Assembly (NCBI RefSeq): GCF_001422485.1
Contig: NZ_LMNF01000001.1
Location: 1,665,498 to 1,729,497, forward strand
Direction of reading: 5' to 3'
DNA length: 64,000 bases
Origin: Agreia sp. Leaf283
Lineage (GTDB): Bacteria > Actinomycetota > Actinomycetes > Actinomycetales > Microbacteriaceae
Part shown: in pieces, positions 10,622-47,483 of the stretch
Layout: the number at the start of each line of letters is the position of its first letter
Numbering within the stretch: the stretch's first letter is position 1
Translations under genes and position numbers: made by a program
The notes under the pieces: model-generated
Told to the model about the DNA's origin: nothing
Seen by the model: the letters and a program-made list of their open reading frames with translations, nothing else
The model's database searches: none

Positions 10622-10697
10622 ATGCTCCATCCTCACGCATGCCGCCGACAGTGTGTCCTGCGGCGCCGACGGCTGGTCTCGTGGGTAAGAATGGACT

Positions 10698-25597: not shown

Positions 25598-29476
<3,879 letters not shown>

Positions 29477-29491
29477 TAGGCAGCCTCACGA

Positions 29492-29527
29492 GAAGAGCCC
29501 CTCACCGTTCGCGGTGGGGGGCTCTTC
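29492..29527. terminator. Terminator after rpoC (probably bidirectional)
   Basis: Arms GAAGAGCCCCTCACC (29492-29506) and GGTGGGGGGCTCTTC (29513-29527) form a 15-bp stem with one wobble pair and a 6-base loop. It separates rpoC from the convergent spermidine-synthase-like gene. Confidence 0.85.
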
Positions 29528-29545
29528 CCGTTTGTCACTCGGGCG

Positions 29546-30322
29546 CTACCGCGGGGGCGCGATCACGCGCCAGGCGACCGGATGCGGTCCCGCCGCCGCC
29601 AGCGCCGGCATCCGTTCGAGAATGGCCGGGTCGGCGCCGGCGACAAGCACCACGTTGCCGGCCTCGCGGCCGTCGAGCGTTGCTGCGGGGCCGATCATGG
29701 CGACGGCGGGGAACACCGCCCTGAGGGCGTCGAGCTGCCGCCCGACCGTGCCGAGATCCGGCTCGTCGGCCACGTTCACCAGAACGGTGCCCCGGGGCGC
29801 GAGCACCGCCCGCACCGCCTCGAAGAAGTCCTGCGAGATGAGATGGGCCGGTGTCGAGACGCCGGCGTAGACATCGCACACGACGATGTCGGCGCCCTCG
29901 CGCCAGTCGGATCCCGGCAGGGCGAGCGACCGCAGCGCGTCGAGCGCGTCGCCCTCGACGAGGTCGATCTCGGCCGAGCGCGGCAGCGGCGCGTGCTCCA
30001 GCACGAACGCCACCAGCCCCTCCTCCTTCTCGACGACGAGCTGCCTCGATCCCGGCCTCGTCAGAGCGACGTAGCGGGCGAGTGTGAGCGCGCCCGCACC
30101 CAGGTGCAGAACGTCGAGCGGCTCCGCGGGCCGGGCCGCGAGATCGATCGCCGTGCCCATGCGCCGCACGTAGTCGTAGAAGAGGTGCCGCGGGTCGCGC
30201 AGCGAGACATGAGACTGAGGCACGCCGTCGAGGCTCAGCGTCAGCGCCCCCGCGACGAACGGGTCGGGAGTCAGCCAGGCCACCGTCGACGACGGGAGGG
30301 TCATCTGCGCTGCATCTGCCAC
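29546..30322 (-). CDS. Spermidine-synthase-like methyltransferase-fold protein (paralogue 2)
   Basis: A 258-residue protein with the same layout as the gene at 20884-21774: LSLDGVPQSHVSLRDPRHLF, LDVLHLGAGALTLARYVALT (cofactor loop), VVEKEEGLVAFVLEHAPLPR and IVVCDVYAGVSTPAHLISQD. The two share long motifs such as GVPQSHV/GTPQSHV and TRPGSRQ, so they are paralogues. The GTG at 30322 lies 7 bases after TAGGCT; an ATG at 30304 is the alternative start. Whether it transfers aminopropyl groups is unknown. It diverges from the FHA gene that opens the signalling cluster. Confidence 0.8.
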   Translation of the reverse strand: MADAAQMTLPSSTVAWLTPDPFVAGALTLSLDGVPQSHVSLRDPRHLFYDYVRRMGTAIDLAARPAEPLDVLHLGAGALTLARYVALTRPGSRQLVVEKEEGLVAFVLEHAPLPRSAEIDLVEGDALDALRSLALPGSDWREGADIVVCDVYAGVSTPAHLISQDFFEAVRAVLAPRGTVLVNVADEPDLGTVGRQLDALRAVFPAVAMIGPAATLDGREAGNVVLVAGADPAILERMPALAAAGPHPVAWRVIAPPR

Positions 30323-30329
30323 AGCAACG

Positions 30330-30379
30330 AGCCTAGGCTCCCGGCGCCGCGACCGGGGTGGCCCCGGGGGTAATAAGCT
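30330..30379. promoter_or_regulatory. Divergent promoters of paralogue 2 and the FHA gene
   Basis: On the minus strand TAGGCT (complement of 30330-30335) is 7 bases before the GTG at 30322. On the plus strand TAAGCT (30374-30379) would start transcription about 9 bases before the FHA ATG at 30395. Confidence 0.45.
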
Positions 30380-30394
30380 GTCGCACGGCAGGCG

Positions 30395-31351
30395 ATGACG
30401 ACCGTCGACGGCGGAATGGGAGTTCAGGTGGGGACCGGCACGATGCGCGTCGAATGGCAGGAGCCCGTGACACTCCATATCCACCCCGATGTCACCGACG
30501 CGCAGGCGGTCCAGGTCCGCCGCTCCGCGGGCGATGCGGTGCAGTTGCTGGTCGGCCAGGACATGACCGTGCGCGTGCGGGTTCTGGATGCCGCGGGCCC
30601 GGTTTCCGTCGGCCCGGGACAGATCGTCGAGGGGGTCACCTCGATCGAACTCGACGCCGCACTCGACGACGACACCGTGATCAGCGTCGACCGCCTGACC
30701 TCGGGCAGCGCCCCATCCCTTCCCCCGCTGACCCGCGAGGGCAACGATGTCGACGACACGATCCTGGGCCAGCCGGCCGTGACCGCCGCGGCCGACGATC
30801 CCAACGCATCCGCAGACACCGTGATCGGCGAGCGGCGCCGCGCTCCGGTTGCCGCGCCCGACTCCGTTCTGCCGCCGCCCCCGCTGCCGTCCATTCCCGG
30901 CATCCCGGCCAGCGCCCACCTGAGCGCGGGCGTGACCCCGACGGGCGGGCGACGCACCCGCATCGAGCAGCCCGACGCATCCGGCCAGACCACCGTGCCC
31001 CACGCCGTGTCCTTTCCCGACGGGCGCGTGATCGCGCTCGACCGCGCCGTCTACGTCGGCCGCTCGCCCCGCAGCCCGCGCATCACCTCGGGGCTCGTGC
31101 CCGAGCTCGTCGCCGTTCCGTCTCCGCGCCGCGAGGTCAGCGCCACGCACCTCGAGATCCTCGAGGAGGGTCGCGCCGTCGTCGTGCGCGATCTCGGCTC
31201 GACCAACGGAACGAGGGTGAGCACACCCGGAGCCGCGCCGTCGGTGCTCAGCCCGGGGTCCAGCCGCGTGGTCGCCGCCGGAACCACGCTCGACCTCGGA
31301 GACGGCATCGTGCTCGAGATCGTCGCGGGCACGGGCGGTGCCGCGTGGTGA
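30395..31351 (+). CDS. FHA-domain phosphothreonine-binding protein
   Basis: A 318-residue cytoplasmic protein. The C-terminal FHA domain (about residues 205-315) has the expected residues: YVGRSPRSPR, REVSATHLEILEE and DLGSTNGTRV, which together bind phosphothreonine. The N-terminal 100 residues form a beta-rich region beginning MRVEWQEPVTLHIHPDV. The linker between is proline-rich and contains DDTILGQ and ADTVIGE, Thr-rich motifs that could themselves be phosphorylated. ATG 30395 is used, though ATG 30443 (MRVEW) is also plausible. Its stop overlaps the PP2C start (GTGA), so the two are translationally coupled. It is probably an adaptor or substrate of the kinase encoded downstream. Confidence 0.88.
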   Translation: MTTVDGGMGVQVGTGTMRVEWQEPVTLHIHPDVTDAQAVQVRRSAGDAVQLLVGQDMTVRVRVLDAAGPVSVGPGQIVEGVTSIELDAALDDDTVISVDRLTSGSAPSLPPLTREGNDVDDTILGQPAVTAAADDPNASADTVIGERRRAPVAAPDSVLPPPPLPSIPGIPASAHLSAGVTPTGGRRTRIEQPDASGQTTVPHAVSFPDGRVIALDRAVYVGRSPRSPRITSGLVPELVAVPSPRREVSATHLEILEEGRAVVVRDLGSTNGTRVSTPGAAPSVLSPGSSRVVAAGTTLDLGDGIVLEIVAGTGGAAW

Positions 31352-32172
31352 CGGCCGCGCCCTCGACCGTGGGCGCCGCGACCGTGGCGCTGCCCGGCGA
31401 CGGCGGCCACCTCGGGCTCTCCTGGGCCGCCCAGACGAACAGGGGCCTGAAGCGCGCGCAGAACCAGGACAGCTATCTGGCCGAGGCGCCGGTGTTCGCC
31501 GTGGCCGACGGCATGGGAGGCCACGCGGCCGGCGACGAGGCGAGCGCGGCCGTCGTCGAGCGGCTGGCGGAGCGGCTCTCGGGCGGATTCGCCTCGAGCG
31601 ACGAGATCACCGACGCGCTCCGGCGGGCGAGCGCCGACATCGGGGAGATCGCGGGAGGTCGCGAGGGGTCGGGTGCCGGCACGACGGTGACGGGCATCGC
31701 TCTGACGCTGCAGGCAGGGCGACCCTACTGGGCCGTGTTCAACATCGGCGACTCGCGTGTCTACGTCCTCGACGGCGGGGTACTCACGCAGCTCACCGTC
31801 GACCACTCGGCGGTTCAGGCCATGGTCGATTCCGGCCGCATCACCGCGATCGAGGCGGAGTCGCATCCGAATCGCAACATCATCACCAGGGCGGTGGGGT
31901 TCGGCAAGAACCCCGTGCCCGATCTGTGGTTCATTCCGGTGGCGCAGGGGGCACGGCTGCTCATCTGCTCCGACGGCCTCACGAAGGAGGTCGACGTCGA
32001 TCTCATCCGTCTCCTCCTGTCCGAGGCGATCGATGCCGACGACGCGGCCGGGCTGCTGCTGGAGGCCGCACTCGCCGCCGGCGGGCGCGACAACGTGACC
32101 ACGGTGGTCGTCGAGGTCGTCGACAGCGACATCGAGGCCGAAACCGACGCCACACTTCCGCGATTCGACTGA
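31348..32172 (+). CDS. PP2C-family Ser/Thr protein phosphatase
   Basis: A 274-residue metal-dependent phosphatase. Metal and phosphate motifs are all present: the N-terminal NRGLKRAQNQDSYL, VFAVADGMGGHAAGDEAS, FNIGDSRVYVL, LLICSDGLTKEV and GGRDNVTTVVVEV. There is no membrane segment, so it acts in the cytoplasm. The GTG start at 31348 overlaps the FHA stop. It should reverse the phosphorylation made by the kinase encoded next, completing a writer-reader-eraser set with the FHA proteins. Catalytic residues look intact. Confidence 0.93.
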   Translation: MTAAPSTVGAATVALPGDGGHLGLSWAAQTNRGLKRAQNQDSYLAEAPVFAVADGMGGHAAGDEASAAVVERLAERLSGGFASSDEITDALRRASADIGEIAGGREGSGAGTTVTGIALTLQAGRPYWAVFNIGDSRVYVLDGGVLTQLTVDHSAVQAMVDSGRITAIEAESHPNRNIITRAVGFGKNPVPDLWFIPVAQGARLLICSDGLTKEVDVDLIRLLLSEAIDADDAAGLLLEAALAAGGRDNVTTVVVEVVDSDIEAETDATLPRFD

Positions 32173-32215
32173 CCTCTGTGCCCCTGATTGGGGGAGCCTT
32201 GTGAGGGGGCGGAAC

Positions 32216-32246
32216 TGGACGATGCCGGTGATGGCATATGTACAGT
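32216..32246 (+). promoter_or_regulatory. Possible promoter of the kinase gene
   Basis: TACAGT (32241-32246) is a good -10. TGGACG (32216-32221) is a weak -35 at a 19-base spacing. The leader of about 70 bases has GAGG 8 bases before the kinase ATG. The 152-base gap before the kinase is the largest break within the signalling cluster. Confidence 0.45.
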
Positions 32247-32324
32247 GGGGAGACGGCTTTTCGGGGGGATCGCCCAGGGGTGTCTCGCCCCGCACTACGC
32301 ACCCGTCCCGAAAGAGGAACACCC

Positions 32325-33749
32325 ATGGCCCGCAGGCTGCCTTCACAGCCTCCCGTGCTCGCGGGCTACACGCACCTCCGCGCCCTGGGAAAGGGCGGCT
32401 TCGCCGACGTCTTCCTCTATGAGCAGGCGCTTCCCCGGGCCGATGTCGCCGTGAAGGTCCTGCTTCCGGGCGTGGCGACCAACAGCGTGCGCGCCATGTT
32501 CCTGTCGGAGGCGAACCTGATGTCGCAGCTCGCGACGCACCCCTCTGTCGTCACGGTTCACGCCGCGAGCATCGCGCCCGACGGCCGCCCCTACCTGGTG
32601 ATGGAGTACTGCCCCTCCTCCTACGGGTCGCGCTACAAGACCGAGCGCATCGCCGTGGCCGAGGTGCTGACGGCCGGCGTCAAGATCGGCAGCGCACTCG
32701 AGAGCGCGCACCGCCTCGGCTTCCTGCACCGCGACATCAAGCCGTCGAACATCCTCCTCACGCAGTACCACCACCCCGTGCTCGCCGACTTCGGCATCGC
32801 GGCCACGGTGGCCGAGGCCGAACGCGAGGAGGCCGAGGGCATGAGCGTGCCCTGGTCGGCGCCGGAGGTTCTGCAGTCCGAGACGAGGGGCACGGTGCGC
32901 AGCGAGGTCTGGTCGCTGGCCGCCACCCTCTATTCGATGCTCGCCGGCCGCACACCGTTCGAGTATCCGGGCAAGAGCAACACCCGTGACGACCTGCAGC
33001 GCCGCATCGTGGGTCGTGACCGCGTGCCGCCGACCGGGCGGCCGGATGTTCCGCCGGAGCTCGAGGCGCTCCTCGCGTCGTGCCTGAGCAAGAACCCGGC
33101 CGCGCGACCCGCGAGCGTGCTCGAGGTCGTCCGCGGCCTCCAGCTGATCGAGTCGAGCCTGTCCCTCCCTCAGACCTCGGCCGACATCTCGAACGAGGCG
33201 GTGCACCGCCCGGCCCCGAGACCGTCTTCGGCCTCGCTCACGAAGGCCGCCCAGGGCGGGGTCTCGGTGCGCGGCGCCGAGGGCCCGCGGGTGAGGCACC
33301 GGGGGCGCCAGTCCGAGGCCGTCCGCGAGTCCACCGACTCGAGCGTCACGGTGATCAGGCAGGCCACGGCCGCTCGCTCGCGCTCCGTGCGCAGGCCCGG
33401 CGTGATCGCCGCCGTCGTCGGCAGTGCTGTCGTGCTCGTGGCCGCGATCGTCGCCGCCGTCGTTCTGGTGCTGGGCGCGTTGAACACGTCGATGCCGGTC
33501 GTCAGCGACATCCGGGCCCAGGAGCAGGCCGGAACCGTCGTCTTTTCCTGGCGCGACCCGGGCCTCGCAGGCGGCGACCTCTACGTCATCCGCTCGACAG
33601 ACGGCTCCTCGTCGACGCAGACCTCGACCGAATTCACCGTGCAGGCCGACGGCTCCGTGCCCGAGTGCATCACCGTGCGCGTCTCGCGTGACGGCCGACT
33701 CGGCGACCCGTCGGCCGAGAAATGCGCGCCGGCCGGGGGCGCCGGATGA
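32325..33749 (+). CDS. Membrane Ser/Thr protein kinase with short non-PASTA extracellular domain
   Basis: A 474-residue Hanks-type kinase. The glycine loop is GKGGFADVFLY (residues 22-32), the ATP-binding Lys is in VAVKVLLPG, the catalytic loop is HRDIKPSN (His135-Arg136-Asp137), and the metal-binding motif is DFGIAATV. The activation segment ends MSVPWSAPEVLQ, shorter than in PknB and with few Thr residues. A single membrane helix (VIAAVVGSAVVLVAAIVAAV) lies at about 358-382. The external 90 residues look Fn3-like (AGTVVFSWRDPGLAGGDLYV) and contain two Cys; there are no PASTA repeats. The ATG at 32325 has a GAGG site. The stop overlaps the start of the giant Ig-like protein (ATGA). Confidence 0.92.
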   Translation: MARRLPSQPPVLAGYTHLRALGKGGFADVFLYEQALPRADVAVKVLLPGVATNSVRAMFLSEANLMSQLATHPSVVTVHAASIAPDGRPYLVMEYCPSSYGSRYKTERIAVAEVLTAGVKIGSALESAHRLGFLHRDIKPSNILLTQYHHPVLADFGIAATVAEAEREEAEGMSVPWSAPEVLQSETRGTVRSEVWSLAATLYSMLAGRTPFEYPGKSNTRDDLQRRIVGRDRVPPTGRPDVPPELEALLASCLSKNPAARPASVLEVVRGLQLIESSLSLPQTSADISNEAVHRPAPRPSSASLTKAAQGGVSVRGAEGPRVRHRGRQSEAVRESTDSSVTVIRQATAARSRSVRRPGVIAAVVGSAVVLVAAIVAAVVLVLGALNTSMPVVSDIRAQEQAGTVVFSWRDPGLAGGDLYVIRSTDGSSSTQTSTEFTVQADGSVPECITVRVSRDGRLGDPSAEKCAPAGGAG

Positions 33750-36700
33750 TCTTCCGCTGGCTCCGCGCGCACGCGTCGCAGGCGATCACCACCGTGAGCG
33801 TTCTGCTCGTCGCTGCCGTCGTGCTCACCGTGGCCCTCGTATCGACGGGGTACACGGAGCAGAAGCTGCAACTCGACGACGCGTCCGTCTGGGTCACCAA
33901 CGGCTCGCGCCAGGTGGTCGGGCGCGCCAACACCGATGTGTTCGAGCTCAACTCGGTGGTCAAGAGCGAGGGCGGCGACATCGACGTGCTGCAGCGGGGA
34001 TCCACCGTTATCGCCCACGACCGCACGAGCAACACCCTGCAGGTCATCGACCCCGCGTCCTCGCTCGTCACCTCTACGATCCCGCTTCCGGCGGGCGACC
34101 CCGACGTGATGCTCGACGACGGCCAGATCGTGATCCACTCGGCCGACACGGGCGAGGTCTGGGTCGTGCGACAGGCGAACCTCGACACCTTCGACGACAC
34201 GGAGCAGCCTCTGCTCAGCCTGGATGCGGGCAGCGCGGTCGCCGTCGACGACACGGGCATGCTGGTGGGCTTCGATCGGCGCAGCCAGCGTCTCGTGACC
34301 GCCGACATCCGTTCGGGTGCCGAGCCGAGCTCCGAGCCGGTGACCGGCATCGACGCCGAGGACGACGACGAGGTGCAGGTCACGCTCACCGGCGGCGTCG
34401 CATCCGTTCTCGATGTGACACGGCGCGAACTCGTCGTCGGCGGTCGGCAGATCGACCTGACCGACAGCGTCGGGGCATCGGAGGAGCTTCAGCTGTCGGC
34501 GGCGACCACGACCGGAGACACCGTGCTGATCGCCCACTCTGGCGGTCTGCTGGGCGTCGACACGGCCACCGGAGCGCTCGAACGGCTGGTCGAGGGCGCG
34601 CAGGGTCTGCCGGCCCGGCCGTTCGTCGATGACGATGGATGCGCGTACGCGGCCTGGGCGGACGGCTCGACCTGGCAGCGCTGCGGCTCGTCGGACGCGG
34701 TGAGCGGCCGGCTCGCCGGCGTCTCCGCCGACGACGACCTGGCCTTCCGCAGCAACGGCCGATACGTCGTGCTGAACGACCGCGTCGGCGGCCGGGTCTG
34801 GGCCGTGCAGCACGAGAACCGCCTCATTGACAACTGGGACCAGCTGATCGATGACGACGACGACCAGCAGCAGCAGGACGAGATCGACGACCAGACGCCT
34901 CCCGAGCTCGTCGCCGACCAGCAGCCGCCCGTGGCCAACGCCGACGACTTCGGCGCCCGCCCGGGCGTGGCCAGCATCCTGCCCGTGCTGCTGAACGACT
35001 ACGACCCGAACGGCGACGTGCTGTCGATCACGGCGGTCGGCGAGGTCGACCCCGCACTGGCGCAGATCGACCTCGTGAGCACGGCGCAGCGGCTGCAGGT
35101 CACTCTGACGCCGCAGGCATCCGGCACCTTCTCGTTCGACTACACCATCTCCGACGGCCGGGGCGGCACGGCCTCCTCCGTCGTCACCGTCACCGTGCGC
35201 TCCGCCGGTGAGAATTCGCCGCCCGTGCAGGCGCGGGTCACCCAGGCGGCCGTGGCCGTCGGCGGGGTCTTCACGACGAATGTGCTGGGAGACTGGTACG
35301 ACCCCGACGGCGATCCGATGTACCTCGTCGAGGCGCAGACGGCGGAACCCGACCGCGTGTCGTTCGCGCCCGCGGGCGAGCTCGACTTCCGCAGCGGGTC
35401 GACGGCACCCGGCAGCACGGAGATCGGCCTGCAGGTCTCCGACTTCACCGAGGCCGGAACCGGCCAGGTGCGGGTCACGGTGTCAGAGCCCGGAACCGTG
35501 CCGATGACCGCGGACGGTTTCCTCGTGCAGGGCTACACGGGCCAGGAGCTGCAGATCTCGCCCCTCGAGCACGTTCGAGGAGGAACGGGCAGCATCCGCC
35601 TCAGCACCGTGGCCGACTACCCCGAGACCACAATCACGCCCAACTACGCCAAGGGCACCTTCCGGTTCGAGTCGCAGAAGGCCGGAATCCACTACCTGTC
35701 GTACTCGGTCACCGACGCGGCGCAGCAGACGGCGACGGGCGTCGTGCGCGTCGACATCGCGGCCGCGCCCGATGCCGCGACGAAGCCCATCACCGTGCCG
35801 ACCGTAGCCTTCCTCTACCAGCAGCAGACAGACCTGGTCGACGTGCTCTCCACCGACATCGACCCGGCGGGCGGCGTGCTGAGCATCTCGGGGGTCTCGG
35901 GAGTGCCTGCCTCCTCGGGCGTGGTCGTCGAGGTCATCGAGCACCGCATCCTGCGCGTCAGGCTCAACAATCCGCTCGACGGCCCGGTGACATTCGGCTA
36001 CACCGCAACGAACGGATTCTCGAGCGCAGAGGGCGTCGTGACGGTCTACCAGGTTCCCGAGCCCGCGAGGCTCCAGGCGCCCGTGGCCACGGCCGACAGC
36101 ATCTCGGTGCGCGTCGGAGAGGTCGTCGACATCCCCGTCGTGGCGAACGACGAGCACCCGAACCGCAAGCCGCTCGTGCTCGATCCCGCGCTCGTGCAGA
36201 ACGTGCCCTCCGGAGGCGGCCTGCTCTTCGTCTCCGGCAACCGACTGCGCTACCTCGCCCCCGACGAGCCCGGCGACTTCACGGCGATCTACCGCCTGGG
36301 CACCACCGCCGACGTGCAGTTCGACACGGCCCAGGTGACGATCTCGGTGAGAGAGGCCGACGCCGCGACCAACTCCGCCCCCGTGCCGCCGACGCTGTCG
36401 GCCCGCGTGCTCGCAGGCGAGGCCGTGAAGGTCTCGGTTCCTCTCGGTGACATGGATGCCGACGGCGACTCGGTGAGGCTCGTCGGGGCCGCATCGAATC
36501 CGTCGCAGGGCAACGTGACCGTCGCGGGCGACGTGATCACCTACACGGCCGGCGCGGCGTCGCAGGGCACGGACTCGTTCTCCTACGAGGTCGTCGACAG
36601 CCTCGGTGCCCGAGCGACCGGGGTCGTGCGGGTGGGTATCAGCCCCGCCTTCGACACGGCCAGCCTTCCGGTCGCGGTCGACGACGTGGTCGTGACCACG

Positions 36701-39607
36701 CCGGGCAACTCGATCACCGTAAGGGTGCTCGAGAACGACTCGGATCCGAACGCCGGCGCCCTCGACATCGTGGGCACGGAATCCGCAGACGCCGAGGCCG
36801 CCGTCGACGTGCCGAAGTCCGCGGACCGCATCACCTTCCAGGCTCCGGAGGCCGAGGGTGACTACGCCGTGCTCTACACGATCCAGAACGAGGCCGGCCA
36901 GCAGGCATCCGCGTGGCTTCGTGTGCGTGTCGATGTCGATGCCCCTCCCGTGCGCCCGGAGGCCGACGACACCGTGCTGAGTCTCACCGACATCCAGGGT
37001 CGTGACGAGGTCACGGTCGACGTGATGCGCAACGTCTTCTACGCCGAGGGCGACGCCGATGCACTCGATCTGTCGCTCGTCGCGGGCTACGACAGCACCG
37101 CCGAGGTGCTCGCAAACAACCGGGTGCGGGTCGCCGTGCAGCAGAAGAGCCAGATCATCCCCTTCGTCGTGGCGAGGGCCGACGATCCCGATGTGAGCGC
37201 CACGGCCTTCATCTGGGTTCCCGGCCTCGAGGATGCGCTGCCCGAGCTGCGCACGACGGCCAAGCCGCTGCAGGTGCTGAGCGGAGACACGCTCTCGATC
37301 GACATCAACGACTACGTGGTCGCGGCCGGAGGCCGGCAGGTGCGGCTCACAGACGAGGCCACGGTCAAGGCGAGCAACGCCGACGGGTCGAATCTGGTCG
37401 TCGATCCCCGAACGCTGAGCTTCACGAGCCGCGACGGATACTGGGGCCCGGCGTCGCTGTCGTTCGAGGTCACCGACGGCTCGAGTTCCGACGACCCCGA
37501 TGGGCGCAAGGCCGTGATCGTGCTCGCGATCACCGTCGAGCCCCGTGACAATCAGCCGCCCGTCTTCTCCGGGGCGCAGCTGGCCCTGCAGCCGGGCGAC
37601 GAGCGGGTGATCGAACTCCGCGACCTCACGAAATACCCCTATCCGGCCGATGTCGACCAGCTCGTGTACGCACTGAACTCCCAGCCCGGCGCCGGGTTCT
37701 CGGCGACGCTCGCGGGCACGCGCCTCACGATCGCGGCCGCAGCGGATGCCCGGGTCGGCAGCGGCTCGGAGTTCTCGGTGGGGGTGCGCGACGCGAAGAG
37801 CGACGGCAAGGCAGGCATCGTCAAGGTGTCGGTGGTCACGTCGAATCGCCCGCTCGTGAGCCCGGGGGCCGACACCCTCACGATCCGTCGCGGCGAGTCG
37901 GCGTCGATCCCCGTGCTCGCCAACGACACGGCGACCAACCCGTTCCCCGACAAGCCGCTGACGGTCGTCGCCGTGCAGGGCGCGGTGCCTGCCGGCGTGC
38001 AGGTCACACCGAGTGCCGACAAGAGCACGCTCCAGGTATCGGTCTCGCCGCAGCTCGATCTGAAGACCGCCGGCCAGGTGTCGATGCAGTACCAGGTGGC
38101 CGACGCCACGAACGATCCGACCCGCGCCGCGTGGGGCACGGTCACGATCACCATCGTCGACGTGCCCGACCAGCCGGCGGCTCCGGTTCTCGGCGGCGCC
38201 GGATTCGTGAACGGCCAGCTCGCCGTGTCGGCGGTTCCGCTTCCGTATCCGAACGGCGCCCCCATCACGTCGTTCATCATCCGCAGCGACGACAACGGGG
38301 GATACTCGAAGGACTGCGGCGCCTCCGCGACCTGCCTCCTCACCGACCTGCAGGCGGGCAAGAACTACACGTTCTACTCGATCGCGGTCAACCAGTACGG
38401 CCAGTCGGTGCCGAGCGCGCGCAGCGCTCCCATGCGCAGCGACTACATCCCCGCGCCGCCACAGCGGGTCTCGCTCACCCGGGAAGCGGCGGATTCGACC
38501 CAGTCGAACGAGGGCTATCTCGTCGTCTCCTGGAATCCCATCGCCGACCCGACGCCGGGCAGCGCGGTGCAGCGGGTGCGGGTGCAGATCGGCGGGTCCA
38601 CCGTCACGCTCGACCGATCCGCGACCTCCCTGCGCTACCGGGGCGTTCCCGGAACGGAGTACACCGCAGAGGTGTGGGCCGAGAACGGTGCCGACTCCCT
38701 GTATCCGGGGCAGATCCCGTGGAACAGATCCAGCTCGGGGGCGGCGACCGCCGTCGGCGCTCCGACCGCGAGCACAGTGGAGGCCACCGTCGTCGACGAC
38801 GCCGGCTCCGTGCGCGTCGACTGGTCGGCCTTCGGCGCCAATGGCGCGTCCGGCGTGAAGTACACGGTGGTGCGCTACCCGGCATCCGCCACCGTGCCGA
38901 GCTGCGGCCAGGCATCCGGCGGGCCCGTCGTCTCACCCGGCGTCGTCGTGCCGACGGCATCCGGCGACGTCGGATCGCGATTCGTCTACGTCGTCTACGC
39001 CGACAACGGCTGGGGATGCTCCTCTGCCCAGACCGGCAGTGTGCGCGTGCTTGTTCCCCCGGCGCCGCCGACGGTGTCTCTCGCGTACCAGGAGCCTTCC
39101 GACGGACGTTACGGCGTCGCCGTCTCGAGCGCGGCACCGGCGGTGCTGCCGAACACCGACGCATCCGAGTACACGATCCAGGTGTCGGGCGGCCAGGCCG
39201 TGACGAACGGATCCCCCCTGTCCGGATCCGGCCCGTGGACCTTCACCTCGTGCATCACGAGCGACGGCACGACGCGGTGCAGCGAGGCCGTCGCTGCCAC
39301 GAATCCTCTCGTGCCCGTGAACGCGAACGCCTCGGTCACCTCGTGCGTCGCGGAGCAGCAGGTGTCGGTGGCGCTCGAGAGCGCGGGAAGCGTCTCGTGG
39401 ACGTTCGAGTACTCGTTCCGCTCGACGATCGCCGGAATCCCCGGTGGATGGTCGAGCTGGTCCGACGACCCCACCGCGCCGGCTCTCGGCGCGCTCGCCG
39501 ATTCGCAGGAGGTCGTCGTGCGCACGATCGGCAATGGGGGAGACTTTACGAGCGGCACGGACCAGAACGAGCTGCGCCAGCGCGGCAGCGGCAGGCAGTG
39601 CGGGTGA
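33746..39607 (+). CDS. Giant membrane-anchored Ig-like/Fn3 repeat protein
   Basis: A 1,953-residue protein with one N-terminal membrane helix (AITTVSVLLVAAVVLTVALV, about residues 14-33) and the rest outside. Residues ~35-370 are beta-rich with propeller-like repeats (LQVIDPASSLVTSTIPLP). A very acidic and Gln-rich linker (DDDDDQQQQDEIDDQ) follows near 371-390. About eleven Ig/cadherin-like repeats of roughly 85-95 residues span ~395-1470, several with VLLNDYDPNGDVLSI or VLENDSDPNAGALDI motifs that may bind calcium. Fn3-like modules occupy ~1472-1953, with several Cys. There is no sortase signal. The start overlaps the kinase stop, and MoxR follows 34 bases after its end. It is probably a cell-surface or wall-spanning structural or adhesive protein. 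Confidence 0.85.
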   Translation: MIFRWLRAHASQAITTVSVLLVAAVVLTVALVSTGYTEQKLQLDDASVWVTNGSRQVVGRANTDVFELNSVVKSEGGDIDVLQRGSTVIAHDRTSNTLQVIDPASSLVTSTIPLPAGDPDVMLDDGQIVIHSADTGEVWVVRQANLDTFDDTEQPLLSLDAGSAVAVDDTGMLVGFDRRSQRLVTADIRSGAEPSSEPVTGIDAEDDDEVQVTLTGGVASVLDVTRRELVVGGRQIDLTDSVGASEELQLSAATTTGDTVLIAHSGGLLGVDTATGALERLVEGAQGLPARPFVDDDGCAYAAWADGSTWQRCGSSDAVSGRLAGVSADDDLAFRSNGRYVVLNDRVGGRVWAVQHENRLIDNWDQLIDDDDDQQQQDEIDDQTPPELVADQQPPVANADDFGARPGVASILPVLLNDYDPNGDVLSITAVGEVDPALAQIDLVSTAQRLQVTLTPQASGTFSFDYTISDGRGGTASSVVTVTVRSAGENSPPVQARVTQAAVAVGGVFTTNVLGDWYDPDGDPMYLVEAQTAEPDRVSFAPAGELDFRSGSTAPGSTEIGLQVSDFTEAGTGQVRVTVSEPGTVPMTADGFLVQGYTGQELQISPLEHVRGGTGSIRLSTVADYPETTITPNYAKGTFRFESQKAGIHYLSYSVTDAAQQTATGVVRVDIAAAPDAATKPITVPTVAFLYQQQTDLVDVLSTDIDPAGGVLSISGVSGVPASSGVVVEVIEHRILRVRLNNPLDGPVTFGYTATNGFSSAEGVVTVYQVPEPARLQAPVATADSISVRVGEVVDIPVVANDEHPNRKPLVLDPALVQNVPSGGGLLFVSGNRLRYLAPDEPGDFTAIYRLGTTADVQFDTAQVTISVREADAATNSAPVPPTLSARVLAGEAVKVSVPLGDMDADGDSVRLVGAASNPSQGNVTVAGDVITYTAGAASQGTDSFSYEVVDSLGARATGVVRVGISPAFDTASLPVAVDDVVVTTPGNSITVRVLENDSDPNAGALDIVGTESADAEAAVDVPKSADRITFQAPEAEGDYAVLYTIQNEAGQQASAWLRVRVDVDAPPVRPEADDTVLSLTDIQGRDEVTVDVMRNVFYAEGDADALDLSLVAGYDSTAEVLANNRVRVAVQQKSQIIPFVVARADDPDVSATAFIWVPGLEDALPELRTTAKPLQVLSGDTLSIDINDYVVAAGGRQVRLTDEATVKASNADGSNLVVDPRTLSFTSRDGYWGPASLSFEVTDGSSSDDPDGRKAVIVLAITVEPRDNQPPVFSGAQLALQPGDERVIELRDLTKYPYPADVDQLVYALNSQPGAGFSATLAGTRLTIAAAADARVGSGSEFSVGVRDAKSDGKAGIVKVSVVTSNRPLVSPGADTLTIRRGESASIPVLANDTATNPFPDKPLTVVAVQGAVPAGVQVTPSADKSTLQVSVSPQLDLKTAGQVSMQYQVADATNDPTRAAWGTVTITIVDVPDQPAAPVLGGAGFVNGQLAVSAVPLPYPNGAPITSFIIRSDDNGGYSKDCGASATCLLTDLQAGKNYTFYSIAVNQYGQSVPSARSAPMRSDYIPAPPQRVSLTREAADSTQSNEGYLVVSWNPIADPTPGSAVQRVRVQIGGSTVTLDRSATSLRYRGVPGTEYTAEVWAENGADSLYPGQIPWNRSSSGAATAVGAPTASTVEATVVDDAGSVRVDWSAFGANGASGVKYTVVRYPASATVPSCGQASGGPVVSPGVVVPTASGDVGSRFVYVVYADNGWGCSSAQTGSVRVLVPPAPPTVSLAYQEPSDGRYGVAVSSAAPAVLPNTDASEYTIQVSGGQAVTNGSPLSGSGPWTFTSCITSDGTTRCSEAVAATNPLVPVNANASVTSCVAEQQVSVALESAGSVSWTFEYSFRSTIAGIPGGWSSWSDDPTAPALGALADSQEVVVRTIGNGGDFTSGTDQNELRQRGSGRQCG

Positions 39608-39641
39608 GAGTCGCCGCCACAGAGACAACAGGAGTACGACC

Positions 39642-40616
39642 ATGACCATGACCCGCGAACAGGCCGTCTGGTTCTCCGACGTGTTCGGCCGACTCGTCAC
39701 GAACGTCGAGCGCGTCGTCTTCGGCAAGAGCCACGTGGTGAGACTGGCCTTCACGACGCTTCTGAGCGAGGGCCACCTGCTGCTCGAGGACTCCCCGGGC
39801 ACGGGCAAGACCTCGTTGGCCCGCGCCATGGCGCAGACCGTGCAGGGCACGTCGAGCCGCATCCAATTCACCCCCGACCTCCTTCCCGGCGACGTCACCG
39901 GCATGAGCATTTACGACCAGAAGCAGGGCGTGTTCGAGTTCCACCGCGGCCCGATCTTCGCGTCGATCGTGTTGGCCGACGAGATCAACCGGGCGAGCCC
40001 CAAGACTCAGTCGGCGCTGCTCGAGGTCATGGAGGAGGGCAGGGTGACGGTCGATGGCGCGACGCACGGGGTGGGCAGGCCCTTCCTCGTCGTGGCGACG
40101 CAGAACCCCGTCGAGCAGGCGGGAACCTACAGGCTGCCCGAGGCGCAGCTCGACCGCTTCATGATGAAGGCCTCGCTCGGCTACCCCGACCGCTCGTCGA
40201 CGATCGCGATCCTCGAGGGCGCGGCCACGCGCACGCACGACAGCACGATCCCCGCCGTGGTCACGAGCGCCAGCATCGTCGAGATGGCCGATCTGGCGCG
40301 CACGGTTCACGTCGGACACGCGGTTCTCGACTACGTGGCCGACATCGTGGATGCGACGAGGAACGCGGTCGAGGTGCGTCTCGGCGCGAGCGTGCGCGGT
40401 GCCGTGGCCCTCGTGCGCACCTCGAAGACGTGGGCCGCGGCCCACGGCCGACACTTCGTGACGCCCGACGACGTGAAGACCCTCGCCGAGAACGTGCTCG
40501 CTCATCGGCTGGTGCTCGATCCCGAGGCGGAGTTCGACGGCGTGACCGCGTCGAGCATCATCGGTCAGATCCTGCTCGAGACCCCGCCGCCCACCGACAG
40601 GGCGAAGTCGGCTTGA
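39642..40616 (+). CDS. MoxR-family AAA+ ATPase
   Basis: A 324-residue AAA+ chaperone-like ATPase. Walker A is EDSPGTGKTSLARAMAQ (residues ~48-58), Walker B IVLADEINRASPKTQSALLE, sensor 1 in VVATQNPVEQAGTYRLPEAQ followed by LDRFMM with the arginine finger, and an AAA lid domain at the C-terminus. MoxR proteins commonly work with DUF58 or vWA partners to assemble or activate protein complexes, and a DUF58 gene overlaps its end (TTGA). AGGAG lies 7 bases before the ATG. All catalytic residues are intact. Confidence 0.95.
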   Translation: MTMTREQAVWFSDVFGRLVTNVERVVFGKSHVVRLAFTTLLSEGHLLLEDSPGTGKTSLARAMAQTVQGTSSRIQFTPDLLPGDVTGMSIYDQKQGVFEFHRGPIFASIVLADEINRASPKTQSALLEVMEEGRVTVDGATHGVGRPFLVVATQNPVEQAGTYRLPEAQLDRFMMKASLGYPDRSSTIAILEGAATRTHDSTIPAVVTSASIVEMADLARTVHVGHAVLDYVADIVDATRNAVEVRLGASVRGAVALVRTSKTWAAAHGRHFVTPDDVKTLAENVLAHRLVLDPEAEFDGVTASSIIGQILLETPPPTDRAKSA

Positions 40617-42109
40617 GCGACGACGCGCGGCGTGCGAGTGCGACCGGGGCCGGCGGCCCCGGTTCGCCGCAGCGCCCGCGAGAGGTGCGGGCCAGGCGCA
40701 CGGCGTTCGGCCGCCGCACCGCCCGCCGAGCCCGGGACCAGGCGGCATCCGGAACGACGGACGCCCGGGCCGAGCTGACCGGCCTGACCGGAACCCACGC
40801 CTACACGCGCACGCGCGCCGCATCCGCCATCGACGACGGCGGGGCACGCACGGGTGCCCGGATGCGCGCGGTCCGGATTGCGCGGGCGGCGCGGGCGGGC
40901 GTCCGACGCGCCTGGAGCTGGACCGCGGCGACCGTCACCGGACTCGGGCTGGCCGTCGTCGGTGTCGTGGTCGTCGGCGCCGTGTTCGGCTATCTGCTCG
41001 GCTGGATGGAGCTCGTCGTGGCGGCGTTCACCGGTCTCGCCCTGCTGCTGCTCGGAACGCTCTTCCTCCTCGGCCGCAACTCCTACGACGTGGGTCTCTC
41101 GCTCGACCGCGATCGTGTCGTGGTCGGCGAGTCGGCGCGCGCGACGCTCTCGGTGTGCAACCCCAGCCGGTTCCGCCTTCCCCCCGTCAAGAGCGAGGTT
41201 CCGGTCGGCAGCGGTCTGGCGGAGTTCTATCTCGGCGGCATCCGGCGGCAGGGACAGGTCAGCCGGGTCTTCGCCGTTCCCACGGCGCGGCGGGGCGTCG
41301 TGCGGGTCGGGCCGGTGCGAACCGTGAGGGCTGATCCGATCGGACTGCTCCGCCGCGAGTACGTCTGGACCTCGTACCTCGAGCTGTTCGTGCATCCGGC
41401 GACCGTGGCCATCCCGTCGACGAGTACGGGCCTCATCCGCGACCTCGAGGGAAACCCGACGCGCGACCTCACCGATTCCGACGTCTCGTTCCACGCCCTG
41501 CGCGAGTACGCTCCCGGCGACGACCGGCGGCACATCCACTGGAAGAGCACGGCGCGGACGGGCAGCCTCATGGTGCGGCAGTTCGAAGAGACGCGGCGCA
41601 GTCATCTGGTGATCGCCCTGTCGCGCTCGAGCGCCGACTACCACTCCGAGGAGGAGTTCGAGCTCGCCGTCAGCGTGGCGGGATCGATCGGGATCCGAGC
41701 GATCAGAGACGCCAGGGACGTGTCCGTGCTCACCAGCGCCGAGACGCCCGAGTTCGCCCGGCGGGCCACGACGACACCCCTGCGCCTCAGCTCGCTCAGC
41801 AGGACACGCCTGCTCGACGACCTCGCGCGCGTCGAGCACAGCGCGAGAGCCATGGGACTCGTCGCGCTCGCCCGGGGCGGCGCGGAGTCGGTCTCCGGAG
41901 CATCGGTGGCCATCGTCGTCTGCGGATCCGAGGTGACGAGCGCACAGCTGCGCACCGCGTCGGTCGCGTTCCCCGCGGGGGTCGAGGTTCTGGCCGTGGT
42001 CTGCAACCCGGGGATCGTGCCGAGCCTGCGCCGCGTCGGAGAGTTGAGCGTTCTCACGGTGGGATACCTCACCGATGTGCAGAAGGCGCTGGCGAGGGCG
42101 GCATCGTGA
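40613..42109 (+). CDS. DUF58 membrane protein (MoxR partner)
   Basis: A 498-residue protein. A basic, disordered N-terminus of about 100 residues precedes two adjacent membrane helices (VTGLGLAVVGVVVVGAVFGY, LVVAAFTGLALLLLGTLFLL). The periplasm- or cytoplasm-facing beta domain (RDRVVVGESARATLSVCNPS) and then the DUF58 core follow, with REYAPGDDRRHIHWKSTART, the family signature, near residue 300. DUF58 cores are vWA-like. The TTG start at 40613 overlaps the MoxR stop; ATG 40862 (MRAVRIARAARA) would drop the disordered part and is a real alternative. The end overlaps the transglutaminase-fold gene (GTGA). It probably acts with MoxR. Confidence 0.88.
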   Translation: MSDDARRASATGAGGPGSPQRPREVRARRTAFGRRTARRARDQAASGTTDARAELTGLTGTHAYTRTRAASAIDDGGARTGARMRAVRIARAARAGVRRAWSWTAATVTGLGLAVVGVVVVGAVFGYLLGWMELVVAAFTGLALLLLGTLFLLGRNSYDVGLSLDRDRVVVGESARATLSVCNPSRFRLPPVKSEVPVGSGLAEFYLGGIRRQGQVSRVFAVPTARRGVVRVGPVRTVRADPIGLLRREYVWTSYLELFVHPATVAIPSTSTGLIRDLEGNPTRDLTDSDVSFHALREYAPGDDRRHIHWKSTARTGSLMVRQFEETRRSHLVIALSRSSADYHSEEEFELAVSVAGSIGIRAIRDARDVSVLTSAETPEFARRATTTPLRLSSLSRTRLLDDLARVEHSARAMGLVALARGGAESVSGASVAIVVCGSEVTSAQLRTASVAFPAGVEVLAVVCNPGIVPSLRRVGELSVLTVGYLTDVQKALARAAS

Positions 42110-44421
42110 GGGCGGCTCCCCGCATCGATCGACTCTCCGCAGCGATCGACACGGCCTTCTTCGTGCTGCTGATGTGCATCGCGGCGGCGACGCTCTGGCC
42201 CATCTACGAGACTCCGCGACTCCTCGTTCTCGCGGGGGCGGCGCTCGTGCTCGGGGTCGCCGTCGCATGGGCCGGCGCGCTGCTGCGCTGGCCCGGGTAT
42301 GCGGTCCTCGGCGCATCCATCGGGGTGTTCCTGGTCTTCGGTGTGGCGCTCGCGGTTCCCGGTCGAGCGATCTCCGGGGTGCTGCCGAGCTTCGACGGCA
42401 TCCGCGACCTCGTGACGGGCAGCGCCCTGGGGTGGAAACAGCTCGTCACGGTCGACCTGCCCGTTGCGAGCTACCAGTCCCTGTTGGCTCCGGCCCTTGT
42501 GCTGATGCTCGGGGGGAGTGTGCTCGGCCTGTCGATCCTGCTGCGCACACGACGGGGCGAGATCGCCGTGGTGATCCCCATCGTCGTGGCCGTCACGGGC
42601 ATCGCCCTCGGCCCCGAGACGGCGTGGTTCCCCGTCGTCACGTCGATCGCGTTCCTCCTCGCGGCGATCGCCTGGATGACGTGGCGGGCCAGGCTCGCGA
42701 GGCGCCGGGCCATCGCGCTGCTGTCGGGCCAGACCGGGTCGGATGCCCGAACGCGTGAGGTCGAGCCGGAACGACGGGGGGCCGTGCGCCCCGTGATCGC
42801 GGCCGTGCTCGTTCTCGCGGTCGCCGTCGCCGCGGGCGTCGCCGGTGCCGCGGCCCTGGCTCCCCAGGGTCCGCGCGACGTGGTGCGAGCCGCCGTCGAG
42901 AGGCCGTTCGATCCGCGCGACTACGCGAGCCCCCTCAGCGGCTTCCGCTCCTACTTCAGCGCCGAGGCCGCGGGAGCGCCGCTCTTCGAGGTCGACGGGC
43001 TGCCCGACGGGGCGCGCATCCGGCTGGCGGCGCTCGACACCTACGATGGCGTGGTCTACAGCGTGGGCGACGGCTCGTCGACGGCCGATTCGGGCTTCTT
43101 CGCCCGTGTTCCCTCGACGATCGACAGAGCCGGCGAGGCAGGCTCGGCCGTCACGGCGACGATCTCGGTGTCCGGCTACCGAGGGGTCTGGCTTCCCATC
43201 GTGGGAGACGCCGAGAGCGTCGAGTTCGGCGGGCCCCGAGCGTCTCGGCTGGCAGACGAGTTCTTCTACAACCGCACCACGTCGACGGCCGCCGTGCTCG
43301 GCGGAGTGCAGGAGGGCGACACCTACACCGTCGATTCGATCGTGCCTCCCGCGCCCGACGACGACGAGCTGCTGGCCGCCACCCCGGGCGACGCGTCGGT
43401 TCCGCAGCCGAGCAACGTGCCGGATGCGGTCGCCGCCGCGGTCGCCGACGACACCGCCGGGCTCGACCGACCCGGCGAGAAGCTGGCCGCCGTCGTCCAG
43501 GCGATCCGCGCATCCGGCTACATCAGCCACGGCACCGATGCCGACCGGCCCTACTCTCGATCGGGCCACGCCGCCGACCGCATCACCGAACTCCTCACCG
43601 CCCCGCTCATGCTGGGCGACGCAGAGCAGTACGCCGCGACCGTCGCGCTCATGGCCGGCGAGTTGGGCTTCCCCGCCCGCGTCGTGATGGGCTTCGCGCC
43701 CCCTGCCGGGTCGACGACCGTGACCGGGGCCGACGTCTCGGCCTGGGTCGAGGTCGACCTCGCCGGCTACGGATGGGTCGCACTCGAGCCGACGCCCGAC
43801 GACAGGCCGATTCCCGAACAGCTGCCGGATGCGACGCAGCAGGTGTCGAGGCCGCAGGTCGTCATCCCGCCGCCGCCCGCCGCCGACGACACGCCCGTGG
43901 AGCCGAACCGGCCGGAGGCCGACGAGAAGCAGGCAGACGATCCCGACGCGTTCTGGCCGGTCGTTCTCGGCATCGTGCGCATCGTGGCGATCGTCGGACT
44001 GGTGCTCCTCGTCGTCTGCGCGCCGGTGATCGTCGTGGGGGTCGCGAAGCTGGCACGCCGGCGTCGTCGGCGGCGGCGATCGGATGCCGTCTCCCGCATC
44101 GCCGGAGGGTGGCAGGAGCTGGTCGACGCGGGCCTCGACTACGGCTACGACGTGCCGCCCGCGGCAACGAGGCTGGAGGCCGCGCGGGCCGTCGGCGTCG
44201 CTGGGCTCGACACGCTCGCGCGCCGAGCCGACACGGCCGTCTTCGCCGACGACCGCACAGACTTCACGGAGGCCGACCGCTACTGGTCGGATGTCGCGGC
44301 CGCCCGCGCCGTGTGGGCGAAGGACTTCTCGAGGTGGCAGCGCATCCGTGCCGCGGCCCGCGTGCGATCGCTCGCGTCGAACCGGCGCGAGTCCGACGGC
44401 GGGGGAGTGCGTCGTGGCTGA
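42106..44421 (+). CDS. Transglutaminase-fold membrane protein with all three catalytic residues replaced
   Basis: A 771-residue protein of the TgpA-like family: about six or seven N-terminal membrane helices to residue ~215, an extracellular transglutaminase-like domain (~260-570), a further helix near 625-650 (VLGIVRIVAIVGLVLLVVCA) and a cytoplasmic C-terminal domain. In active relatives the core reads GDCEQYA ... HAWVEV ... DPTP. Here it reads GDAEQYA, SAWVEV and LEPTP, so Cys, His and Asp are Ala506, Ser545 and Glu561. The fold residues around them are kept (GFPARVVMGF, GYGWVALEPTP), which argues for a maintained non-catalytic protein. It overlaps DUF58 upstream and an FHA gene downstream, the usual MoxR-DUF58-transglutaminase trio. 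Confidence 0.9.
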   Translation: MRAAPRIDRLSAAIDTAFFVLLMCIAAATLWPIYETPRLLVLAGAALVLGVAVAWAGALLRWPGYAVLGASIGVFLVFGVALAVPGRAISGVLPSFDGIRDLVTGSALGWKQLVTVDLPVASYQSLLAPALVLMLGGSVLGLSILLRTRRGEIAVVIPIVVAVTGIALGPETAWFPVVTSIAFLLAAIAWMTWRARLARRRAIALLSGQTGSDARTREVEPERRGAVRPVIAAVLVLAVAVAAGVAGAAALAPQGPRDVVRAAVERPFDPRDYASPLSGFRSYFSAEAAGAPLFEVDGLPDGARIRLAALDTYDGVVYSVGDGSSTADSGFFARVPSTIDRAGEAGSAVTATISVSGYRGVWLPIVGDAESVEFGGPRASRLADEFFYNRTTSTAAVLGGVQEGDTYTVDSIVPPAPDDDELLAATPGDASVPQPSNVPDAVAAAVADDTAGLDRPGEKLAAVVQAIRASGYISHGTDADRPYSRSGHAADRITELLTAPLMLGDAEQYAATVALMAGELGFPARVVMGFAPPAGSTTVTGADVSAWVEVDLAGYGWVALEPTPDDRPIPEQLPDATQQVSRPQVVIPPPPAADDTPVEPNRPEADEKQADDPDAFWPVVLGIVRIVAIVGLVLLVVCAPVIVVGVAKLARRRRRRRRSDAVSRIAGGWQELVDAGLDYGYDVPPAATRLEAARAVGVAGLDTLARRADTAVFADDRTDFTEADRYWSDVAAARAVWAKDFSRWQRIRAAARVRSLASNRRESDGGGVRRG

Positions 44422-44869
44422 GCCCGAGCTGCCCCCGTTCCCCGCGTCGTCGCCCGGCGGGCTGTGGCATGCGCGATCCGCGCGCATCCCGTTCGTCGAG
44501 CCGTGGCCCCGTTCGGAGGAGGAGTCCGAGCGCCCGAGCGCCCCGGCGTCGTATCTCCTCGATTTCAGCACGGGCCAGACGGTGACCGTCGCGGGCGCCG
44601 GCGTCATCGGGCGGATGCCCCAGGGAGTCCGTGGGGAGTCCTCGCTCCAGCTGGTGCGTGTCGACGACCCGGGTCGATCGGTGTCGAAGGTGCACGCCCG
44701 ATTCGAGATCGACGGCGATGGCCTCTGGCTAGAGGATCTGGGTTCGGGCAACGGCACGACCGTCGAGCAGAGGGGCCGGCCCGCCGTCGCTCTGGCGCCC
44801 GGGCAGAAGTATGTCGTGCAGCCGGGCGCGGTCGTACGCATCGGTCGGCAGTCGTTCACGGTGCGGTGA
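44414..44869 (+). CDS. Small FHA-domain protein
   Basis: A 151-residue protein that is almost entirely one FHA domain after a ~50-residue proline-rich lead. Phosphothreonine-binding positions are present: VIGRMPQGVRG, RSVSKVHARFEIDG and LEDLGSGNGTTV. The GTG at 44414 has GGGGAG upstream and overlaps the transglutaminase-fold gene by 8 bases. With the first FHA protein it gives the cluster two phospho-readers; the likely kinase is the one encoded at 32325. Confidence 0.88.
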   Translation: MAEPELPPFPASSPGGLWHARSARIPFVEPWPRSEEESERPSAPASYLLDFSTGQTVTVAGAGVIGRMPQGVRGESSLQLVRVDDPGRSVSKVHARFEIDGDGLWLEDLGSGNGTTVEQRGRPAVALAPGQKYVVQPGAVVRIGRQSFTVR

Positions 44870-44913
44870 CAGCTCGTGCGCCGCGCCTGCTGGCCAAGCA
44901 CCTCCCCGACCGG

Positions 44914-44919
44914 CAGGAT
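44914..44919 (+). promoter_or_regulatory. Leaderless -10 inside the cluster
   Basis: CAGGAT, then 6 bases, then the ATG at 44926. It would give the last three genes an extra internal promoter. Confidence 0.4.
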
Positions 44920-44925
44920 GGCCTT

Positions 44926-45894: not shown

Positions 45895-45899
45895 CCGTC

Positions 45900-46370: not shown

Positions 46371-46377
46371 GTCTTCG

Positions 46378-47439: not shown

Positions 47440-47453
47440 GCGGTGGCGCTCGC

Positions 47454-47483
47454 TTGACCGAAGGGCATGGTTGGGGCTAATAT
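47454..47483 (+). promoter_or_regulatory. Promoter of the str operon (rpsL)
   Basis: TTGACC (47454-47459), an 18-base spacer and TAATAT (47478-47483). Transcription should start near 47490. Confidence 0.7.

Follow-up and report, generated by a model that had tools for sequence, protein, structure and literature searches.

A giant propeller and Ig-bead protein of a PFNA-type operon in Agreia sp. Leaf283, a candidate envelope stalk with a type VII-like motor nearby in many relatives

Background

The closest described system to the one treated here is the PFNA operon of Bifidobacterium, with the gene order pkb2-fn3-aaa-atp-duf58-tgm (PMC8430577, PMC10688814). It has been reported only from bifidobacteria, with Fn3 domains that are maybe of eukaryotic origin, and the FN3 protein of B. 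longum has 1,994 residues with Fn3 domains at residues 1494-1581 and 1586-1671 (PMC10688814). The TGM product of the operon has been taken as a transglutaminase or a cysteine protease (PMC8430577, PMC6803598). These and later statements on published work refer to the portions of the papers that underlie our comparisons. Here we analyse a 64,000-nucleotide stretch of the Agreia sp. Leaf283 genome (contig NZ_LMNF01000001.1, positions 1,665,498 to 1,729,497), called the window throughout, and a gene within it for a giant protein of 1,953 residues. We assign this giant to the FN3-type proteins of PFNA-type operons, and it could well be the wall-spanning stalk of a kinase-gated envelope or export machine.

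A second point of comparison is T7SSd, a type VII secretion system whose TsdI is a 1,654-residue Ig-like envelope protein with a signal peptide and a C-terminal membrane helix, proposed to span the envelope like EsaA (PMC11217815). The class to which the giant belongs is already known under another name, FN3 of the PFNA operon; by literature searches, its breadth, its fixed build, its dead enzyme partner and its linkage to a motor appear to be new.

Results

The kinase, the giant, the MoxR ATPase, the DUF58 protein and TGM are encoded on one strand of the window in the order of the published PFNA operon (Table 1), and the giant resembles FN3 of B. longum in size, in having a membrane segment and in its Fn3-like domains, which begin at residue 1473. 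The window operon differs from the published one in two added upstream genes, for an FHA-domain protein and a PP2C phosphatase, and in four Fn3-like domains, with borders set by eye. The giant frame opens with ATG at 33746, overlapping the kinase stop codon (33747-33749, ATGA), and closes with TGA at 39605-39607. The DNA at the junctions also shows overlaps between the first FHA gene and PP2C, between DUF58 and TGM and, by a few bases, between TGM and the second FHA gene, and 34 bases separate the giant stop from the MoxR ATG; the genes therefore look like one operon. The kinase retains the catalytic motifs HRDIKPSN and DFG by motif reading, and hydropathy gives it one membrane helix and a short outer part. 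This outer part (window 33513-33746) has a short Fn3-like look (SWRDP...YVIRS), with no Pfam fn3 match listed.

A profile scan of genome contigs went far beyond chance, at least 526 of 591 pattern-matching stretches encoding a relative of the giant, and the best 80 gave 78 named loci. Among these the giant has MoxR as a neighbour in 70, DUF58 in 68, TGM in 64, the kinase in 61 and PP2C in 58, and an FHA gene is found in relatives at the place of the window's first gene. A search of 149 genomes of the order Actinomycetales returned matches to the giant in 81, strong ones in 71, so that the published restriction to bifidobacteria does not hold. Strong giants were 84 matches with an expectation value (E) of 5.7e-81 or better, some of which, at contig ends, span no more than about 900 residues. 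Shorter or weaker matches, for example in G046 and G039, were excluded, and those genomes then counted as lacking a giant; at most two candidates were scored per genome, an under-count, since G021 and G054 have third copies. At no fewer than 73 of the 84 places a MoxR gene follows the giant within 8 kb downstream, counted from 91 MoxR matches at 306 bits or more that do not take in every match under 326 bits. An N-terminal profile at E 1e-6 found 17 of 396 genomes of the phylum, 8 in the order and 9 outside it (4 strong). Relatives occur in genera including Cryobacterium, Agromyces, Herbiconiux, Clavibacter, Microbacterium and Arthrobacter, and the Leaf283 genome itself has a second giant on another contig (C4), 36% identical to the window copy. 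Four loci (L069, L089, L095, L099) hold three to five giant frames or pieces in a row, followed by MoxR in L069 and L099 and with none within the flank in L089 and L095; two whole tandem giants also occur in G041 and G085.

Genomes of the group f4 (1.8-2.7 Mb) carry relatives 29-31% identical to the window giant over about 1,560 residues or more, and MoxR, DUF58 and TGM follow the giant in three f4 loci (L130-L132). Four f4 genomes with giants have an XFP phosphoketolase; the G003 enzyme, the sole one compared, has 3ahc as its best match in the PDB, which we take to be a Bifidobacterium enzyme. On this phosphoketolase rests our placement of f4 as probably Bifidobacteriaceae. The presumed link of the giant to the named FN3 protein stands on gene order, length and the f4 phosphoketolase.

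The original prediction, drawn from the window's letters, had described a single N-terminal membrane helix, a beta-rich, propeller-like region, an acidic hinge, about eleven divergent Ig/cadherin-like repeats with NDYDPNGD-type loops and a Cys-containing Fn3-like end, and our analysis reproduces this layout. Hydropathy finds the sole hydrophobic stretch at residues 8-38, where AlphaFold2 places one helix. AlphaFold2 models built from 51-sequence alignments had a mean predicted local distance difference test score (pLDDT) of 89.6 for residues 1-1072 and 83.6 for residues 1060-1953; conservation was read from an alignment of 50 of 52 non-redundant relatives plus the window protein. The hinge (...IDDDDDQQQQDEIDDQ...) is present, with pLDDT below 50 at residues 370-379. 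Structure prediction, one of the checks that had been proposed, returned Ig-like folds, and fold searches agree. Pfam Big_9 matches nine stretches of the Ig-like part (E 3.1e-61), Cadherin_4 and Cadherin_5 also match, and the models contain eleven Ig-like domains, the borders of these and of the four Fn3-like domains being set from the linker pattern and the models. Loops of DxDPxG-like form, candidate calcium sites of cadherin-like domains, sit in Ig1, Ig2, Ig4, Ig6 and Ig7, with most Asp columns invariant among the 51 sequences. The Fn3-like fold and the cysteines of the last part (among them Cys1524 and Cys1530) held, while four domains are more than an end; Pfam fn3 finds two stretches there, and the fourth domain is weakly conserved. 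Foldseek returned strings of Ig, Fn3 and cadherin chains for the two halves with low template modelling scores, which gives the fold class and nothing finer. The VIA-align list for the N-terminal half was filled by propellers and hardly probed the Ig part. In a PDB sequence search the giant-family profile gave only weak Ig-domain matches and the propeller no significant match.

Neither an LPXTG sortase motif nor a second or C-terminal membrane helix is present in the whole window protein; across relatives, a hydrophobic 19-mer falls within the first 70 residues in 87 of 90 sequences and within the last 200 in 1 of 90. The lack of a sortase motif had been claimed before, and the predicted anchoring by the N-terminal helix follows from it together with the lack of a C-terminal helix. 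From the length and the fall in conservation towards the C-terminus it can fairly be inferred that this end is outermost and that the rod is long enough to cross the wall; by usual bead sizes, 15 beads are about 50-60 nm long.

The modelled residues from about 43 to 365 resemble beta-propellers with VIA-align Z of 17-21 (WD40, BamB, cytochrome cd1 and designed eight-bladed propellers), and block means of pLDDT exceed 91 over most of this region, with 86-88 around residues 191-210. The likeness, taken from the model, is one of fold only and implies no function. Cysteines occur at 299, 313, 1524, 1530, 1720, 1758, 1836, 1845, 1867 and 1952; among the 51 sequences, those at 299, 1524 and 1530 are always kept and that at 313 nearly always. 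A propeller beside MoxR and DUF58 recalls the MoxR-vWA-beta-propeller ternary conflict systems, and the window MoxR scores 36.1 bits with the bpMoxR model (cut-off 27). However, it scores higher with AAA_3 (206 bits), and the propeller follows a membrane helix, so it is probably outside the cell whereas MoxR is inside; a ternary conflict system is hardly credible here.

The build of the giant is nearly constant. In 89 near-complete open frames (spanning residue 40 or less to 1600 or more, shorter frames excluded), the median length is 2031 with a standard deviation of 49 and a minimum of 1675. Ig domains differ in length by a few residues, Ig8 and Ig11 being the most variable. Each of Ig1-Ig11 was compared singly by BLAST, so that the order test does not lean on the alignment, and in 974 of 975 cases the best match in the 89 relatives fell where the alignment puts the domain (no match in 4 of 979). 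The Ig domains of the window giant share a mean identity of 0.21 among themselves, which with the fixed order therefore speaks against recent repeat expansion; as read from sequence, the order is one-to-one and there is no sliding repeat array. The same test was less clear for Fn1-Fn4 (72/76, 17/44, 39/71 and 14/29 matches at the aligned place), and for this reason our claim of a fixed order is limited to Ig1-Ig11. Repeat numbers often rise and fall in repeat adhesins; the constant make-up of the giant, by contrast, suggests that its length is important.

Mean identity of relatives to the window giant is 0.33-0.49 in the Ig part (Ig1 0.46), declines along the Fn3 part and reaches 0.17 at the end. 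That divergence is fastest in these last two regions would suit a host-facing adhesin and cytokine receptor whose Fn3 end binds host ligands that the operon reports, as proposed for bifidobacteria, where adhesion and TNF-alpha binding by FN3 pieces have been published (PMC8430577, PMC10688814, PMC12607495). We consider such a role improbable, given that matches in 81 of the 149 genomes do not fit the claim of a bifidobacteria-only operon, and that the Gp130-like Foldseek matches of the C-terminal half stand among many other Ig, Fn3 and cadherin chains. Cryobacterium, Agromyces, Herbiconiux and Arthrobacter, all with relatives, are moreover free-living genera.

The window TGM has neither the catalytic Cys (GDAEQYA) nor the catalytic His (SAWVE) of a transglutaminase. 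Among 88 aligned TGM proteins, the catalytic Cys (G-x-C) is absent from all 86 alignable rows, and positions -12 to +22 around the site hold no Cys; two of these rows are one gene from overlapping loci (L110, L111). Its place is taken by D, A, Q, E, G or S within G-[DN]-x-E-Q-[YF]-[AS], where G, E and Q are invariant. The His column has H in 47 of 85 rows and in 0 of 21 window-type rows, and the Asp column has D in 65 of 85 rows and E in the window. As a control, three other transglutaminase-like proteins of the Leaf283 genome (five matches) retain G-x-C. Such strict conservation of E-Q hints that the site has been put to a new use and has not simply decayed, and on these residues the operon's 'transglutaminase' would be a pseudoenzyme. 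A protein with TgpA_N and Transglut_core domains in the same operon might otherwise be expected to cross-link the giant into the wall; with the Cys gone in 86 of 86 rows and the His in 21 of 21 window-type rows, while the genome's other such proteins keep their Cys, we give this very little credence.

Behind the second giant, on contig C4, genes for MoxR, DUF58, TGM, FHA, PP2C, FHA and the kinase run into an EssC-type ATPase and a WXG100-like protein. The ATPase (1,485 residues, FtsK/EssC-type, with an FHA domain) matches NCBIfam EssC TIGR03928 best, at E 1.3e-161, and the WXG100-like protein has 88 residues and E 2.5e-7. An EssC/EccC ATPase together with WXG100 in one cluster is the mark of a type VII locus, and the C4 cluster has both, each at a score below its curated cut-off. 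In L112 (1939-2412), the WXG100 gene is followed by one for a small protein with a likeness to LpqN lipoproteins (Pfam E 3.5e-4, a score below cut-off).

Among the matches listed for the 149 genomes, a strong EssC (949 bits or more) is present in 41. The giant is found in 32 of these 41 and in 39 of the 108 others (Fisher p 6.5e-6, a guide only, as the genomes are related). In 20 of the 32 genomes with both, EssC lies within 25 kb downstream of the giant on the same strand, with gaps of 5.5-14.6 kb, against 0.13 linked genomes expected for random placement in 4 Mb; the C4 copy of the Leaf283 genome is among the linked ones. Named loci with the kinase upstream of the giant, as in the window, have an EssC-like ATPase downstream in 17 of 24 cases, one by a weak match, mostly shorter at about 820-1,200 residues. 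Four of the seven without it have an incomplete flank; the other three, all Herbiconiux, have a full one. We also picked 20 regions, 17 of them for a nearby EssC match, a choice that gives no estimate of frequency. WXG100-like genes occur in 9 of these 17 and in the genome's own C4 copy, by a profile built from matches in the same loci. Among the papers listed by our literature searches, mainly open-access, none linked the PFNA operon to type VII secretion.

Because the gene set runs into an EssC-like motor, often with WXG100, in many relatives and in the C4 copy, the giant would most likely be the envelope-crossing part of an export machine. Several findings weigh against this. The 64-kb window has no EssC or WXG100 match, and the nearest relative in this genome of the short ATPases is on contig C2 (38%). 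Giant and EssC are unlinked in 12 of the 32 genomes that carry them both, although three of these are badly fragmented assemblies (G126, G139, G097) and two more have the genes on different contigs; 39 giant-bearing genomes have no strong EssC. WXG100 matched in 0 of the 78 named loci, although in most loci with the kinase downstream the flank stops short of where EssC would begin, and in Arthrobacter and Sinomonas (L091, L093, L101, L109) the nearest 10 kb or so around the giant hold no operon partner. In one f4 genome a T7SSd-like locus stands apart and encodes an unrelated Ig-like protein of its own, and the orientation of the giant is read from one hydrophobic helix. The solo giants, the genomes without a strong or linked EssC and the missing WXG100 matches would fit a plain envelope or adhesion stalk that the kinase and MoxR-DUF58-TgpA-like genes build and regulate; the type VII motor would then be no more than a frequent neighbour sharing the signalling genes. 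This is possible, though we think it somewhat unlikely in view of a linkage about 150-fold over random placement in ten GTDB families and of the 17 picked regions, 11 of which have a kinase gene preceding EssC.

Table 1. Genes of the window operon and parts of the giant protein (window coordinates)
Feature	Coordinates	Strand	Basis and remarks
FHA-domain protein, first of the set	30395..31351	+	Pfam FHA E 1.6e-4, 22.5 bits, cut-off 20.7
PP2C-type protein phosphatase	31348..32172	+	Pfam PP2C_2 E 1e-13; start overlaps FHA stop
Membrane Ser/Thr protein kinase	32325..33749	+	Pfam Pkinase E 9.6e-40; start uncertain
Giant protein, 1,953 residues	33746..39607	+	ATG overlaps kinase stop
N-terminal membrane helix, residues 10-32	33773..33841	+	AlphaFold2 model; hydropathy
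Beta-propeller, residues about 43-368, conserved Cys299 and Cys313	33872..34849	+	Model, fold search, conservation
Acidic hinge, residues 369-392	34850..34921	+	Low model confidence; variable among relatives
Eleven Ig/cadherin-like domains, residues 393-1472	34922..38161	+	Pfam, models; borders by eye
Four Fn3-like domains, residues 1473-1850	38162..39295	+	Pfam fn3, model; borders by eye
Variable C-terminal part, residues 1851-1953	39296..39604	+	Partly low confidence in model
MoxR-type AAA+ ATPase	39642..40616	+	Pfam AAA_3 E 1.7e-61
DUF58 protein	40862..42109	+	Pfam DUF58 E 9.2e-14; start uncertain
TgpA-type membrane protein (TGM), transglutaminase-like domain	42106..44421	+	Pfam TgpA_N, Transglut_core
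Second FHA-domain protein	44414..44869	+	Pfam FHA E 3.2e-10

In the 3.98-Mb genome the operon is flanked by rpoB-rpoC and rpsL-rpsG-fusA, recognised by eye (window 29476-47728). That relatives share this site between rpoC and rpsL was considered and dropped, as rpoB, rpoC or rpsL lay in the flanks of 0 of the 78 named loci; in two f4 genomes (L130, L131), rpoB and rpoC stand behind the operon on the opposite strand. Elsewhere, the window encodes an ordinary large Lhr-type helicase of 1,650 residues on the minus strand (5849-10801).

Discussion

Beyond what the original prediction held, the giant has a PFNA-type operon around it, a paralogue in the same genome, a fixed domain count, a set of partner genes and, in relatives, a frequent type VII-like motor. 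Its family, its architecture, the fixed Ig order, the loss of the catalytic Cys in its partner and the gene linkage are given at the level of sequence. For the machine itself we infer a propeller hub, a rod through the wall, a need for MoxR, gating by the kinase and a role in export, as follows. The N-terminal helix would hold the giant in the membrane, with the propeller just outside it as a hub, and the eleven Ig-like and four Fn3-like beads would line up as a wall-crossing rod of set length with the variable tip outward. The MoxR ATPase, the DUF58 protein and the dead TgpA-type protein would assemble or load the giant, and the membrane kinase, phosphatase and FHA proteins would switch the machine by phosphorylation. 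The gene set of the window copy has no motor, which would have to come from elsewhere; EssC-like genes of this genome are on contigs C2 and C4.

More tentatively, we suggest that the PFNA operon might be the stalk-and-assembly module of an unrecorded type VII-like subtype of Actinomycetales and not a host-sensing cassette. The kinase, FHA proteins and phosphatase would then gate an EssC-like motor, MoxR, DUF58 and the dead transglutaminase would do the assembling, and the giant would be the wall-crossing stalk, with the window copy, and probably bifidobacteria, keeping the stalk module apart from the motor. If so, a probiotic cytokine binder would gain a different and wider role that could be studied in free-living bacteria, and what is known as a host-binding factor of gut bifidobacteria may be one part of a broader machine for secretion or for the envelope. 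Type VII-like systems would gain a subtype with a fixed-length stalk and a handle on export across a thick wall, and the operon's 'transglutaminase' would have to be renamed a pseudoenzyme.

Among known systems, the MoxR-DUF58-transglutaminase triads (PMC6803598) have the same three adjacent genes in the same order as the window, with the difference that the window-type transglutaminase-like partner has lost its Cys. The likeness to T7SSd lies in its occurrence in Actinomycetota and in a large Ig-like protein encoded next to a kinase, a WXG100 gene and an EssC that carries an FHA domain. The main text of its description makes no mention of MoxR, DUF58, transglutaminase or fibronectin (PMC11217815). 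Unlike TsdI, the giant has no C-terminal helix. In one f4 genome a separate locus with what looks like the T7SSd gene order encodes, at a distance of 17 kb from the giant, a TsdI-like protein that does not match the giant profile. The T7SSd-like locus in G082, probably a bifidobacterial genome, has a lower third-position G+C and lies about 15 kb from a PFNA-type giant (L143-L144, G082:C2:392746-407834; gene labels by eye, except the ATPase). EsaA/YueB of T7SSb is likewise an envelope-spanning part beside an EssC motor, likened here by description only (PMC11217815). By analogy, we think that the giant works like the envelope-spanning part proposed for TsdI and is not TsdI. The propeller, the eleven Ig beads, the dead transglutaminase and the type VII link belong to the window family and are not among the PFNA features in the published portions we compared. 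Judged by its genes, the window locus would best be classed as PFNA-type, a gene set that many relatives extend with type VII-like genes.
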